27,270 nucleotides of DNA from IMG/VR virus record IMGVR_UViG_3300035698_028943, positions 1 through 27,270 of that record. One strand, written 5' to 3'. The DNA comes from a virus. The notes under the pieces are model-generated. The model had not been told where the DNA came from, did no database searches, and was given only the letters and a program-made list of their open reading frames with translations. Shown here in pieces: positions 4,683 to 23,207 of this stretch. The translations under genes and the position numbers were made by a program. Position 1 is the first letter of the stretch. Every line of letters starts with the position of its first letter.

Positions 4683-4994
4683 ATGAAAAAAAAACAAACC
4701 ACGGAGAAAGCATATTCTCTCCGTAGCTTGACCGTTATGACAAATAACTCGAACCAAGATCTGTATTATACCTTGATACACAGAGTAAAAATAAAGAAAA
4801 TCCTGAGAGGCGGCACCATTAGTGACCATCATGGTACATCTCTATACATTAGTCGCCATTACTGCTCATTTCTATACAAAACCGACATGTGCCCATGCTG
4901 CCAAAGTACTCGAGCTGTACTAGCAATATATGAGGGTAGAGCAGTTTTATTATGTCTGGGTATATCGTGCTTGATAAAATTATATAAGAGGTAG
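4683..4994 (+). CDS. Cys-rich putative zinc-binding small protein
   Basis: 103 residues, basic, with most Cys in the C-terminal half: CSFLYKTDMCPCC near 62-74 and C-x4-C near 92-97. This suggests a metal-binding knuckle, although the spacing does not match a named zinc ribbon. The gene starts five bases after the previous stop, in the same direction. The ATG is preceded only by a weak AAAGA, so translation may depend on coupling. It is the last gene before the structured leader of the replication gene. No family recognised. Confidence 0.5.
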   Translation: MKKKQTTEKAYSLRSLTVMTNNSNQDLYYTLIHRVKIKKILRGGTISDHHGTSLYISRHYCSFLYKTDMCPCCQSTRAVLAIYEGRAVLLCLGISCLIKLYKR

Positions 4995-5003
4995 TAAAAG
5001 GTA

Positions 5004-5146
5004 CTCCAAAGGGTAACAGCCCCTTGGAGCGTAGAGAGTTTAGAGTTTTCTAAATTCGAACCTCCTAACTCAACAAAAGGAGACTCATATGAAGTTAGAC
5101 TTATCTAAACTAGGGTCCTTAAAAACTTTAAAAATAGGAAGGACCC
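5004..5146 (+). promoter_or_regulatory. structured RNA leader of the replication gene
   Basis: Four hairpins can form in a row. (1) CTCCAAAGGG/CCCCTTGGAG, 5004-5013 with 5020-5029, one mismatch, 6-base loop, no T run after it. (2) GAGTTTAGA/TCTAAATTC, 5036-5044 with 5049-5057, 4-base loop. (3) CTCCT/AGGAG, 5062-5066 with 5078-5082, which would mask the leader-peptide ribosome-binding site. (4) GGGTCCTT/AAGGACCC, 5113-5120 with 5139-5146, a perfect 8-bp stem that covers the ribosome-binding site of the replication gene up to its ATG. Such an arrangement suggests control of translation of the downstream gene. Confidence 0.6.
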
Positions 5147-5163
5147 ATGGCTATATATATTAA
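5089..5163 (+). CDS. 24-residue leader peptide overlapping the replication gene
   Basis: Short ORF (MKLDLSKLGSLKTLK...) with a strong ribosome-binding site, AAAGGAG at 5076-5082 and six bases before ATG 5089. It is read through both arms of the RBS-masking hairpin and stops 17 bases inside the replication gene, in another frame. Ribosomes on it would open the stem and expose the next start. In plasmid R1 a 24-codon leader (tap) does the same for the initiator RepA; this is an analogy of layout, not of sequence. Five of 24 codons are Leu (four TTA, one CTA). The peptide itself is unlikely to have its own job. Confidence 0.55.
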   Translation: MKLDLSKLGSLKTLKIGRTHGYIY

Positions 5164-6235
5164 AGAACAGGATCATTTATTTCCAACAAAAGAAGTTTCT
5201 TTACCACTCAAAAAGTCGTATGAAAGCACCTGGATAGTGCTAGATTCTGATCTTGAACTACTTAAGTGCCCTCGTTTAGCTATGATGATTGCTATCATTC
5301 GTGCTCTTAGCAAAAAGGAAGGCTTTTGTTACACTAGGAATTCTTTCTTCATGCAAAAGCTTTCTATATGTAACAAGACTGTAGAAAAACATCTTAAAAT
5401 CCTTGAAGACCTCAACTTAATCCACAGAAATTCTTGGGCTATTCCTAACAAAGGAAGCAAAAGACACATTGTCCCGAAAGAGAATTCTGATCGTTACTGG
5501 AGAGAATACTTATCTAAACCTGGGATCAATCCGGTAGCAATAAATAGGTTTCTTTTGAATTTCGGTCCACAACAAAAAGTGGAGTATAAACCCCCTACTG
5601 TAAAGCAAAATCCCGACCCGGTAAAAAGTTCCCATACCCCCAAATATTCCAAACCCCCAGAATCTGAGGGGGTGTCAATACGGCAGGGACAAAAAGTTGG
5701 TACCGTATTCTTAACGAATAACAGACTTATACAAGAAGAACAACGTATACAGAAGAAGAGCGTCGTCGTGCCCTTTCCAGTGACTCTAAGAGAAGAGCTT
5801 AAGAAGAGCAAGATAGAACCCGAGATGATTGAGATAGCTGTAAAGTTTGCTAAAGAGGACCCTGAGCGCTTCAAAAAGCTTAGAAACCCTGTAGGTTGGT
5901 TTGTAGCAGGCATTAAGCAAGGGTGGATACATGACGAGATAGCAAAGCATGAGCTCTTAAAGAGCCAGAGGTCGCCATACGCTGATGCTAGTGAGATAGC
6001 TGAGAACAAAATCAGGTATAACAGAGTGGCTAAAGAAGCAAAGAGATACGAAACTGATAGCTATGCCATAGTTCACAATGATCTAGAGGTTATATTTACT
6101 CATAAGCCTTCAGGAGGCTCTCCAATAGCTTTAGAGCGAATAGAATTTAGAGATTTAGAGTTCAGCATGAAAATAAAGCATCGATTGAAAGAGATGAAAT
6201 CCGAAAAAGAACGGGAGAATCTCAATGATATATGA
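5147..6235 (+). CDS. winged-helix replication protein, possible initiator
   Basis: 362 residues. The N-terminal 20-115 has the pattern of a winged-helix DNA-binding domain (LAMMIAIIRALSKKEGF, then NSFFMQKLSICNKTVEKHLK, then LEDLNLIHRNSW), as in phage replication proteins of the lambda O and replisome-organiser type. A Pro-rich linker (about 148-180) follows, then a helical C-terminal domain (EMIEIAVKFAKEDPERFKKL, NPVGWFVAGIKQGW) seen in many phage replication proteins. It probably binds the origin and recruits host helicase; no helicase gene is seen in the window. The RBS, AGGAAGG, is buried in the leader hairpin. The linker DNA is C-rich with a local hairpin. RusA overlaps its 3' end by 11 bases. 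Confidence 0.7.
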   Translation: MAIYIKEQDHLFPTKEVSLPLKKSYESTWIVLDSDLELLKCPRLAMMIAIIRALSKKEGFCYTRNSFFMQKLSICNKTVEKHLKILEDLNLIHRNSWAIPNKGSKRHIVPKENSDRYWREYLSKPGINPVAINRFLLNFGPQQKVEYKPPTVKQNPDPVKSSHTPKYSKPPESEGVSIRQGQKVGTVFLTNNRLIQEEQRIQKKSVVVPFPVTLREELKKSKIEPEMIEIAVKFAKEDPERFKKLRNPVGWFVAGIKQGWIHDEIAKHELLKSQRSPYADASEIAENKIRYNRVAKEAKRYETDSYAIVHNDLEVIFTHKPSGGSPIALERIEFRDLEFSMKIKHRLKEMKSEKERENLNDI

Positions 6236-7604: not shown

Positions 7605-8066
7605 ATGAAAGAACGGTCGATACATGTATCTGAAGAATATCTAGAAACAGTCTGCGAATGGATGATTGAGTTTGCCAACATGGATGACTCATATACGATT
7701 CCTCAATTTGTCCAGTTCAAAGGTATCGGCTATCAATACATAAAATACTTCTGCAGAATTAACGATAAAGTCAGCAACACCTTTGAGATCATGAAGTCGG
7801 TTCTCCACAACAGGTGGCTGTTACTTGCTATGAGACTTGAAGAACTTCCAGCACATAGATCGAAGATGCTTATGAGATATCTAAAGCTTTACGATTCTCA
7901 TGGTGTAGATGTTGAGATAGAGATCAAATCGGCTATAGCAGAAGTGGAGACTAAAACCAACATGAAGGTAACGGCTGACAATTATGCTGCAGCAGAGCTT
8001 CAACAGCCTTATACAGGAATCTACCAATCGAACGATAACAAACGTAGAGGTGGAGACAAAGCTTAA
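7605..8066 (+). CDS. putative terminase small subunit
   Basis: 153 residues, the gene directly before the large terminase, which is where the DNA-recognition subunit normally lies. The N-terminal half is helical (EEYLETVCEWMIEFAN, a FVQFKGIGYQYIKYFC segment that could be a helix-turn-helix) and the next part is a long helical stretch (NRWLLLAMRLEELPAHRSKMLMRYLKLY) like the oligomerisation part of small terminases. The tail is short, polar and basic (NDNKRRGGDK), a plausible DNA or TerL contact. The call rests on position and layout; no strict family motif is visible. Confidence 0.6.
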   Translation: MKERSIHVSEEYLETVCEWMIEFANMDDSYTIPQFVQFKGIGYQYIKYFCRINDKVSNTFEIMKSVLHNRWLLLAMRLEELPAHRSKMLMRYLKLYDSHGVDVEIEIKSAIAEVETKTNMKVTADNYAAAELQQPYTGIYQSNDNKRRGGDKA

Positions 8067-10386
8067 CTCTTTTAAGCCGCGTCCTTATCAGGCTCCTATA
8101 CTTAAGGCCTTAGACAGTGGGTTTAAACGTGTTCTTGCCATACTCCCTAGAAGAGCTGGTAAGGATATCACCGCTCTTAACTATGTCATAAGACAGATGT
8201 GGGAGAACCCAGGTGTTTACTATTATATCTTCCCTACCTACTCTCAAGCCAAGAAGGTGATATGGGATTCAATGACGAACGAAGGTCAAAGGATTCTAGA
8301 TTACTTCCCTGAAGATCTTCTCACTCAGAAGAACTCTCAAGAGATGAAAATTAGGATGCAGGCTAAGAATGGTTCCGAGTCTTTATTTCAGCTTGTTGGT
8401 AGTGACAACTATGATTGCTTTAGTGATGACACAGAAATCCTATCTGAAGATGGTTGGGTTAAATTTAAAGACCTTGATCAATCTTTATCTGTCGCGACTT
8501 TAAACAGTGAAACATCTGAGTTTGAATGGCAGACTCCCACTCAACATGTAGAATATGACTTTGATGGGGATCTATATTGCATAAAGAATTCATCTGTAGA
8601 TTTTGCTGTTACGCCTAATCATAGGTTCTTTGTAGAGTCACCTAAGGGTGTTAAAAAGTTTAAGCAGATACAAGACCCAACGATAATAAACGATAAGATA
8701 CCTAGTGGATGCATGTGGACGGGTGTAAGTCCTGAAACCATCATGGGCTATCCGGCAGAGGCATTTGTAAAGTTTTTAGCGATGTACTTATCTGAAGGAA
8801 GTTGTTTCTCTAATGAAAAGTGTTATCGTATAACCATCAGCCAGACTAAAAAAGGTGTTAGAGATGAGATTGTAGATATTCTAAATGAAATGAAGCTTTC
8901 TTATACTAGTTTTGATGGTGGATTCAACATAGAAAACAAAGAGCTTTTTAAATACTGCTCTCAGTTTGGAAAGCAACAGGAAAGATTTATCCCTAAATAT
9001 GTGCTTAATCTTTCTAATCATCTTCTTCATATTCTATTTGAATATCTTGTTTTGGGTGATGGGCATAGGTGTGACACTTATATAGCCTATTATTCTTCCA
9101 GCAAAAAATTAATAGACAATGTTCAGGAAGTAATCATAAAAATAGGTCTATCAGGGAATGTTCGTTTGAAGCATGAGAAGGGTTACACTAGTAAAATCAA
9201 AGAGAGAGAGGTAATAGCTAAACGTAATCTTTATGAGATTAGAGTTAGATTCTCAAAGTTTAAAAGGTTTCACGGGAGTGCTAACAGGCCATACATCCAC
9301 AAGAGTCCTTACACAGGCAAAGTATATTGCGTCAGTGTACCGAATGAAATTATCAAGGTGAGAAGAAATGGTTTCGAAATGTGGTCTGGAAATTCTCTCA
9401 TGGGTACCAATCCTCGTGGTGTTGTCTTCTCTGAATACGCCCTTCAAGATCCACGTGCATATCAGTACATTCGTCCTATACTTACTGCTAACGGTGGTTG
9501 GGCTCTTTTCATTTCTACTCCTAGGGGCAAGAATCATCTCTGGACTTTAGCAGAGCTTGCAAGAGTTTCACCTGACTGGTTTTATATTAAGCTTTCGGTA
9601 GAAGACACAAACCATATCCCTATGTCTGAGATTGCTAAAGAGCGTCGTGAAGGGCTAATGAGTGAGGATATGATACAGCAAGAGTATTATACGTCATTCG
9701 AAATGGGGATTGAGGGAGCGTACTACAACAAGTACATAGATATAGCTAAACGTGAAGGACGCATAGCAGATGTTCCATGGGAGAATGGTTTTAAGGTTCA
9801 CACGGCTTGGGATATAGGAGTACGTGACTCTACAACGATTATCTTCTTTCAGACAATTGGACAGACCATTCGAATCATAGATTGCTATGAAAACTCTAAG
9901 GAAGGACTTGAACACTATGTATCAGTACTTCAAAGTAAACCCTATGTATATGGAACACATATTGCACCTCATGATATACGGGTAAAAGAGTGGGGATCGG
10001 GAATCACTAGAATTGAAAAGGCTCGACAGCTAGGAGTAAAATTCACTATGTCAGAGAATCTTGAGATACCAGATGGCATAGAGGCTTGTAGATCACTTTT
10101 CAATAAGCTTTGGTTTGACGAAATTAAGTGCAAAACGCTAATAAAAGCCCTAGAAAATTACAGACAAGAATATGATGTAAAAAGAAAAGTATACAAATCA
10201 CGTCCTTTACATGATTGGAGCTCACACTTTGCAGATGCTTTTAGATATTTGGCAGTATCAGTTCCAAAAACACGTGATGGACTCAGTGCACAAGAACTAG
10301 AAGCTCGCTATCAAAATGCGAGATATGGAAACCAAGGAAAGTTACCTGCAATGTTTAGAGACGATAACAATTTAGGAGCCCGTTAA
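8050..10386 (+). CDS. terL: terminase large subunit with an in-frame intein
   Basis: Packaging motor ATPase and headful nuclease. Codon numbers here count from the upstream ATG 7984. Walker A is LPRRAGKD (54-61), then an intein (145-470), then Walker B GVVFSEY (about 479-485). The RNase-H-like nuclease shows AWDIGV (Asp610), PHDIRV (Asp664) and HFADAF (Asp751), the acidic triad. Without the intein the protein is about 450-475 residues, normal for a P22-like TerL. The start is not settled: ATG 7984 would overlap the small subunit by 83 bases without a good ribosome-binding site; GTG 8050 overlaps by 17 and keeps the conserved KPRPYQAPILKAL segment. The intein must splice out for the ATPase site to form. 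Confidence 0.93.
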   Translation: METKLNSFKPRPYQAPILKALDSGFKRVLAILPRRAGKDITALNYVIRQMWENPGVYYYIFPTYSQAKKVIWDSMTNEGQRILDYFPEDLLTQKNSQEMKIRMQAKNGSESLFQLVGSDNYDCFSDDTEILSEDGWVKFKDLDQSLSVATLNSETSEFEWQTPTQHVEYDFDGDLYCIKNSSVDFAVTPNHRFFVESPKGVKKFKQIQDPTIINDKIPSGCMWTGVSPETIMGYPAEAFVKFLAMYLSEGSCFSNEKCYRITISQTKKGVRDEIVDILNEMKLSYTSFDGGFNIENKELFKYCSQFGKQQERFIPKYVLNLSNHLLHILFEYLVLGDGHRCDTYIAYYSSSKKLIDNVQEVIIKIGLSGNVRLKHEKGYTSKIKEREVIAKRNLYEIRVRFSKFKRFHGSANRPYIHKSPYTGKVYCVSVPNEIIKVRRNGFEMWSGNSLMGTNPRGVVFSEYALQDPRAYQYIRPILTANGGWALFISTPRGKNHLWTLAELARVSPDWFYIKLSVEDTNHIPMSEIAKERREGLMSEDMIQQEYYTSFEMGIEGAYYNKYIDIAKREGRIADVPWENGFKVHTAWDIGVRDSTTIIFFQTIGQTIRIIDCYENSKEGLEHYVSVLQSKPYVYGTHIAPHDIRVKEWGSGITRIEKARQLGVKFTMSENLEIPDGIEACRSLFNKLWFDEIKCKTLIKALENYRQEYDVKRKVYKSRPLHDWSSHFADAFRYLAVSVPKTRDGLSAQELEARYQNARYGNQGKLPAMFRDDNNLGAR
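8416..9393 (+). mobile_element. LAGLIDADG intein in the large terminase
   Basis: 326 residues from Cys1 (CFSDDTEILSEDGWVKF, block A) to the final Asn326, with Ser as the first residue of the C-extein. Block B is TPNH (66-69). The two homing-endonuclease motifs are FLAMYLSEGSC (120-130) and LFEYLVLGDGH (207-217), so it is a two-motif DOD endonuclease. Block F is VYCVSVPNEI (303-312). Removing it joins GSDNYD to SLMGTNPRGVVFSEY, which restores a normal terminase sequence just before Walker B. The residue before the last Asn is Gly instead of the usual His. Self-splicing and homing are inferred from the intact motifs. Confidence 0.92.
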
Positions 10387-22622: not shown

Positions 22623-22667
22623 GAATGGCCTCTACATTTATTCTGTTTGGAAAGCATAGGAGTACAT

Positions 22668-23207
22668 ATGAAGCCAATACCAGGATTCGAAGGACATTAC
22701 AGTGTTGATAGAGAAGGTAATATATGGAGTCTTCCTAAGATTATTGAATGCAGTAACGGATATGGGCAGATTAAATATTTGACAAAGTTAAGAAAACTTA
22801 AACCTGGATTAAGTAATTCTGGTTATCATCAAGTCGTTTTAACAAAGAAGGGAAAAACTTTTAATCATTCTGTACATCGATTATTAGGATATACTTTTTT
22901 AAATTTAAAAAAGGGGTTAGATATTAATCATAAAGATGGAAATAAGATAAATAATTTCTTATCAAATCTTGAAGTCTGCACACGAAGTGAAAATTTACAA
23001 CATGCCCAAAAAATTGGGTTAATAAGAGATTTAAAAGGGGAAAATCATCCTACATGCAAAACACCTAAGGGAATGAAAGAAGATCTTGAAAAAGATATTG
23101 AGAATAAGATCTCTTCTTTACAAGCATGTAAAAAATATGGAATAAATAGAACCACCTTTTATTCTATTAGAAATAGAAAACATTGGTGGTATAGGAGTAA
23201 AAAATGA
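22668..23207 (+). CDS. NUMOD4-HNH homing endonuclease
   Basis: 179 residues from ATG 22668 (AGGAG six bases upstream; the frame is open to 22647). NUMOD4 motif at the N-terminus (IPGFEGHYSVDREGNIWSL), then an HNH core (HSVHRLLGYTFLNL, LDINHKDGNKINNFLSNLEV, CTRSENLQHA), then a C-terminal HTH-like repeat (SSLQACKKYGINRTTFYSIR), the usual build of intron-type and free-standing phage endonucleases. It is visibly more AT-rich than its neighbours. It sits between two virion genes, both apparently intact, so it is a free-standing insert. ATGA overlap with the next gene. Confidence 0.88.
   Translation: MKPIPGFEGHYSVDREGNIWSLPKIIECSNGYGQIKYLTKLRKLKPGLSNSGYHQVVLTKKGKTFNHSVHRLLGYTFLNLKKGLDINHKDGNKINNFLSNLEVCTRSENLQHAQKIGLIRDLKGENHPTCKTPKGMKEDLEKDIENKISSLQACKKYGINRTTFYSIRNRKHWWYRSKK

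Follow-up and report, generated by a model that had tools for sequence, protein, structure and literature searches.

A predicted two-strand control element at the start of a phage replication initiator gene

In bacteriophage lambda, the pO-oop-tO segment places a leftward promoter over the start of the initiator gene O, from which a short self-terminating RNA (OOP, 77 nt) is made that ends at a terminator just upstream. OOP overlaps the cII gene over 55 nt, O carries iterons inside its own coding sequence, and the role of OOP in lambda replication is still debated. OOP acts on cII and was reported to be without effect on O-P mRNA stability, and for pO an interference between convergent polymerases has been proposed (PMC3985674). 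In plasmid R1, the copA-copT-tap-repA region combines a short leader overlapping the initiator start, a ribosome-binding site held in a stem and an antisense RNA against the leader region, and both tap coupling and the CopA antisense RNA have been described (PMC12361487). Plasmids of the pMV158 type also direct a small antisense RNA (ctRNA) against the rep leader (PMC12361487).

In this study we focus on the window, which spans all 27,270 bases of an IMG/VR virus record and in which the start of the replication initiator gene (rep) resembles lambda pO-oop-tO in layout and R1 tap-repA in its leader and stem, and is a member of neither. As in lambda, a predicted leftward promoter overlaps the initiator gene start, and the short self-terminating RNA expected from it would stop at a terminator just upstream. 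The -10 element lies at +2 in lambda and at +9 to +17 here; because it sits inside rep, the predicted RNA extends over both the ATG and the SD of the initiator gene, unlike that of lambda. Moreover, it would be about twice as long as OOP and would end at about 4997-5003, whereas the upstream gene ends at 4994, and this failure of the upstream-gene overlap sets the locus apart from OOP. Iterons inside the initiator gene, as in lambda O, are clear in 13 of 19 relatives and weak in the window, and the leader ORF and the stem over the ribosome-binding site are additions relative to lambda. The short leader overlapping the initiator start, the stem (here predicted) and the putative antisense RNA against the leader region recall R1. 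However, the R1 antisense promoter lies upstream of the leader and the predicted one here inside the initiator gene, CopA has no Rfam match here, and the R1 initiator is RepA whereas the one here matches phrog_270/HTH_36 and belongs to a phage, not a plasmid; the locus is thus set apart from R1 by the site of its predicted promoter, by its RNA family and by the kind of initiator. Neither the CopG gene nor the plasmid replicon of pMV158-type systems was identified here.

We place at roughly 0.5 the probability that positions 5000-5190 form a two-strand control element, in which an OOP-like antisense RNA limits the initiator and a tap-like coupled leader has been added in this phage. The features concerned are collected in Table 1.

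Table 1. Features at and around the rep start, in window coordinates
Feature	Position	Strand	Evidence
Leftward terminator: 11-bp hairpin of -17.8 kcal/mol with an interrupted U-tract	5003..5030	-	counterpart in 15/19 relatives
Putative antisense RNA of the OOP type, about 150 nt	4997..5150	-	predicted from promoter plus terminator; z of the fold about -4.6
Dyad 1, TTAGAGTTTTCTAA, either a hairpin or half of a paired operator	5040..5053	.	
Weak stem over leader SD, 5' arm	5062..5066	+	-5.3 kcal/mol for stem
Leader SD AAGGAG, 6 nt before leader ATG	5077..5082	+	
Weak stem over leader SD, 3' arm	5078..5082	+	
Leader ORF, 24 codons, stop ending at rep base 17	5089..5163	+	ORF and comparison of relatives
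Dyad 2, TTAGACTTATCTAA	5095..5108	.	
Stem masking rep SD, 5' arm, GGGTCCTT	5113..5120	+	fold, shuffles
Stem masking rep SD, 3' arm, AAGGACCC, contains rep SD	5139..5146	+	fold, SD accessibility, shuffles
rep, the replication initiator gene; product with an N-terminal winged-helix domain	5147..6235	+	phrog_270 E 2.9e-6, HTH_36 below cut-off, AF2 model
Predicted -10 TTTAAT, antisense promoter (alternative TAATAT 5157-5162)	5159..5164	-	promoter scan; window synonymous test p=0.04
Predicted -35 TTGGAA, antisense promoter	5181..5186	-	promoter scan
Candidate origin within rep, with degenerate iteron-like repeats	5636..5673	+	weak in window

The assignment of the gene as a phage replication initiator rests on weak but consistent evidence: the match to phrog_270, annotated 'replication initiation protein', a sub-threshold HTH_36 match, an AF2 model in which residues ~33-140 form a winged-helix domain predicted with confidence, and the place of rep directly upstream of a RusA resolvase gene. 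The model is disordered at the N-terminus (1-26) and in a linker (143-206). Compared with the PDB, the fold returned generic winged-helix matches only, none at E<=0.001. No rep homologue above about 31% identity was found with the window rep, rep alignments A2, A5 and A7, or tblastn against INPHARED.

The anatomy described in the first-pass annotation is present in full. The rep SD (AAGGA, 5139-5143, followed by 3 nt and the ATG) is buried in a perfect 8-bp stem of -10.9 kcal/mol by itself, and the leader ORF, whose 24 codons equal in number those of tap of R1 and which translates to MKLDLSKLGSLKTLKIGRTHGYIY followed by the stop, starts behind a strong SD and runs through both arms. The short stem CTCCT/AGGAG is present, the leader SD is predicted to be 20% unpaired, and the two hairpins noticed further upstream correspond to the terminator hairpin and to one around the first dyad. 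The stem and leader of the window exceed chance expectation. Indeed, the unpaired probability of the rep SD is 0.032, against a 5th percentile of 0.059 among 418 family gene starts, and no other window gene scored has a lower value. Over 20,000 shuffles, the 75 nt upstream contained a perfect complement to the SD arm 39 times. Of the control genes, 3/497 have an 8-bp stem masking the SD and 7/494 have a leader ORF, defined by an ATG, an SD >=5, a length of 8-45 codons and a stop lying 1-40 nt into the gene; none has both. The sense-strand fold of 4990-5200 has z=-2.8. That the stem is a by-product of the leader peptide was ruled out, as 1 in 20,000 synonymous leader recodings keeps it. Attenuation of the Trp type through leader codons was dropped, no run of a single codon family being seen beyond the Leu/Lys richness of an AT-rich genome, and GGGTCCTT was rejected as a repeated binding site because further exact copies are absent.

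Translation of rep in this phage probably requires that ribosomes on the leader first open the stem. Folding of the rep mRNA leader would shut the rep SD, and ribosomes translating the leader would melt the stem and terminate 17 bases into rep, from where the rep ATG could be entered or used for re-initiation, a translational coupling such as that of tap-repA.

Comparison with relatives drew on 80 related phage contigs gathered via the portal protein, in which reps were located by tblastn and profile, further loci by anchoring on RusA and ERF, and start codons picked by SD; the set is partly non-independent, with common N-termini in L016, L018, L035 and L092. The window rep protein shares only 17-31% identity with the aligned rep proteins, so that the upstream DNA is unalignable, and the layout is therefore what can be compared. 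A leader running through the rep SD and stopping 4-17 nt inside the gene was found in 4/20 reps (the window, L014, L023 and L011) versus 7/494 controls (p=5e-4), and these four leaders are mutually unrelated in sequence. In L014 the SD (unpaired 0.001) is masked by a stem of its own within the leader, UUUUCCCU/AGGGAGAA, unrelated to that of the window, which makes it by prediction a second case of the leader and stem design. The R1 tap-like reading proposed at first thus fits the anatomy, the leaders of L014, L023 and L011 and the stem of L014, but it is not a family rule, since 16/20 reps are without a leader and the rep SD is open in L023 and L011. A search of Rfam, at the gathering cut-off and at E<=5, gave no convincing match.

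Tandem repeats of 32-59 nt reach the rep start in four relatives (L014:2580-2708, L023:5056-5156, L011:127-233 and L066:854-1051), and each unit bears an SD and start codon or a remnant of them; leader ORFs may arise by duplication of the initiation region. Separately, the initiator module is duplicated in L014 and L004, where the full-length winged-helix rep gene comes second, behind a small winged-helix gene (L014:2776-3063 and L004:922-1272).

On the opposite strand, a scan of the 330 nt upstream of rep revealed leftward intrinsic terminators in 15/19 relatives versus 15/200 controls (p=8e-12), and rightward ones in 0/19 relatives versus 15/200 controls. A plus-strand terminator or attenuator at 5003-5030 was accordingly rejected, rightward terminators being absent there from the relatives. 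The U-tract of the window terminator is interrupted (ACCUUUUAC). Leftward promoters scored on an assumed sigma70 consensus, which may differ from that of the host, gather at the rep start, the first base of the -10 falling at +9 to +17 of rep in the best of them. A score >=4 is reached at +8 to +18 in 13/20 reps versus 18/250 controls (p=2e-9), and +12 is the top-scoring leftward-promoter position across -150 to +250. All 13 of these reps also have the leftward terminator. As the position range was picked after viewing the data, it was checked in two ways. When the first 20 rep codons are recoded synonymously, the promoter score falls (combined p=1e-6 for the 13 reps, 9e-5 for all 20), and more distant reps outside the earlier set (L127, the second L153 gene, L113 and L130) have a promoter at +15 and a terminator at about -117 to -169, although they count as about one extra case because they share an N-terminal peptide. 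In lambda (cII end 38653, O start 38686), the same promoter scan returned pO as its top hit, and its rule places the OOP start 10 nt before O, the actual distance being 11. The promoter of the window is ordinary, with a score of 5.2 and an equally good best site in 48% of control regions. At 4695-4730, in the first codons of the 4683-4994 gene, lies a further leftward terminator, which is very strong, with 15 bp and nine T, and may be a second stop for leftward transcripts.

The RNA predicted from promoter and terminator measures about 65-190 nt across relatives, starts near the rep ATG and covers the rep SD; that of the window would fold into three hairpins. By dinucleotide shuffles, the antisense strand outfolds the sense strand in L023 (z -7.2 versus -1.9), L092 (-6.1 versus -0.5), L031 and L026, which points to selection on an antisense RNA. 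Good folding is seen on both strands of the window, whose promoter and U-tract are of moderate quality only, so that the case for this phage leans on its relatives. Among them, the predicted antisense RNA is better conserved than the leader. The first-pass annotation had raised such an RNA near 5000-5060 as a possibility; the position predicted here is different, with a start close to the rep ATG at ~5150 and an end at ~5000, a geometry of lambda OOP and not of R1 CopA.

Transcription from the promoter in the first rep codons to the hairpin at 5030-5003 would yield an RNA complementary to the whole leader and its SD as well as to the SD and ATG of rep, and for this reason we propose that it blocks initiator synthesis. 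As each phage genome copy would make the antisense RNA, its dose should rise with replication and limit the initiator, acting as a brake on replication. Convergent transcription from the same promoter may also dampen rightward read-through, as proposed for lambda pO, and polymerase interference may add to, or replace, the effect of the RNA. The OOP-like position does not prove control of rep translation, since lambda OOP acts on cII and is reported to leave O-P mRNA stability unaffected.

The sense-strand leader and stem might instead control rep by coupling alone, the antisense signals of the window being decayed or inactive. The weak promoter and U-tract of the window and the example of L014, with leader and stem but without antisense signals, agree with this, but both signals stand at their family positions in the window, the synonymous test there supports the promoter, and the hairpin upstream corresponds to the conserved leftward terminator, so that we hold such a one-sided control to be unlikely. 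The converse, a functional promoter and RNA with an incidental leader and a stem that is simply the 5' hairpin of the antisense RNA, would account for relatives that mostly have antisense signals and lack a leader; a perfect stem folds on either strand, and around the leader SD the antisense stem has 9 uninterrupted pairs, the sense stem 5. Against it are the enrichment of leaders among relatives, the strength of the leader SD and a U-G pair in the L014 stem that fits the sense strand only, and this too appears improbable.

Collisions of leftward with rightward polymerases near the origin, and not RNA pairing, could be the way in which the promoter acts. This was proposed for lambda pO (PMC3985674), whose layout is alike, but the predicted RNA spans the rep SD and is strongly structured in relatives, unlike a mere by-product, and we consider interference as the sole mechanism quite unlikely.

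Iteron-like repeats with a period of 23-28 are found mid-rep, clear in the 13 relatives mentioned above and in 11% of control genes. In L011, L016, L023, L092, L045, L031 and others they are direct repeats with internal dyads, ~400-630 nt into rep, at the disordered linker, and are likely origin iterons. In addition, the dyad TTAGAN4TCTAA, a pair absent from the first-pass annotation, has exactly two copies in the 27-kb window (expected 0.09), 55 bp apart and flanking the leader SD; two copies within 100 nt occurred in 0/400 shuffles, and dyads upstream of rep exist in several relatives as well. Such dyads or inverted repeats could bind a phage regulator or Rep as an operator or origin, with RNA structures as by-products, but GGGTCCTT has no further exact copies, the iterons of relatives lie inside the gene and the promoter and terminator enrichment would be left unexplained, which makes a purely DNA-level element very unlikely.

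Beyond this locus, we suggest only tentatively that tailed phages have a copy-number switch of two layers: an antisense RNA placed like OOP, but with its start shifted onto the initiator start codon, would directly block translation of the initiator, and some members would add a tap-like leader over a masked ribosome-binding site. If true, it would unite the designs of lambda OOP and plasmid R1, with position, not sequence, conserved across an uncultured phage family. An RNA over the initiator ribosome-binding site and off the upstream gene would separate the two roles proposed for OOP, on cII and in replication control, and a coupled leader before a phage initiator would mean that copy control of the plasmid kind has arisen in phages. 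The signature, a leftward promoter in the first codons with a leftward terminator upstream, can be searched for in any phage genome.

A single portal match was found among genome contigs, on L167 (JANQJL010000105.1) of a Simkaniaceae (Chlamydiota) MAG, at 62% identity; no rep homologue was found on that contig. Two further Chlamydiota genomes (L255, L256) carry full-length portals at 37% identity, and 4/151 genomes gave any match. The phage family may infect environmental chlamydiae, with MAG binning errors possible. Elsewhere in the window, the large terminase ORF (7984-10386, 800 aa) has an apparent intein with a LAGLIDADG domain between the terminase halves, and an HNH_3/NUMOD4 homing-endonuclease-like gene (22647-23207) lies amid the virion genes.
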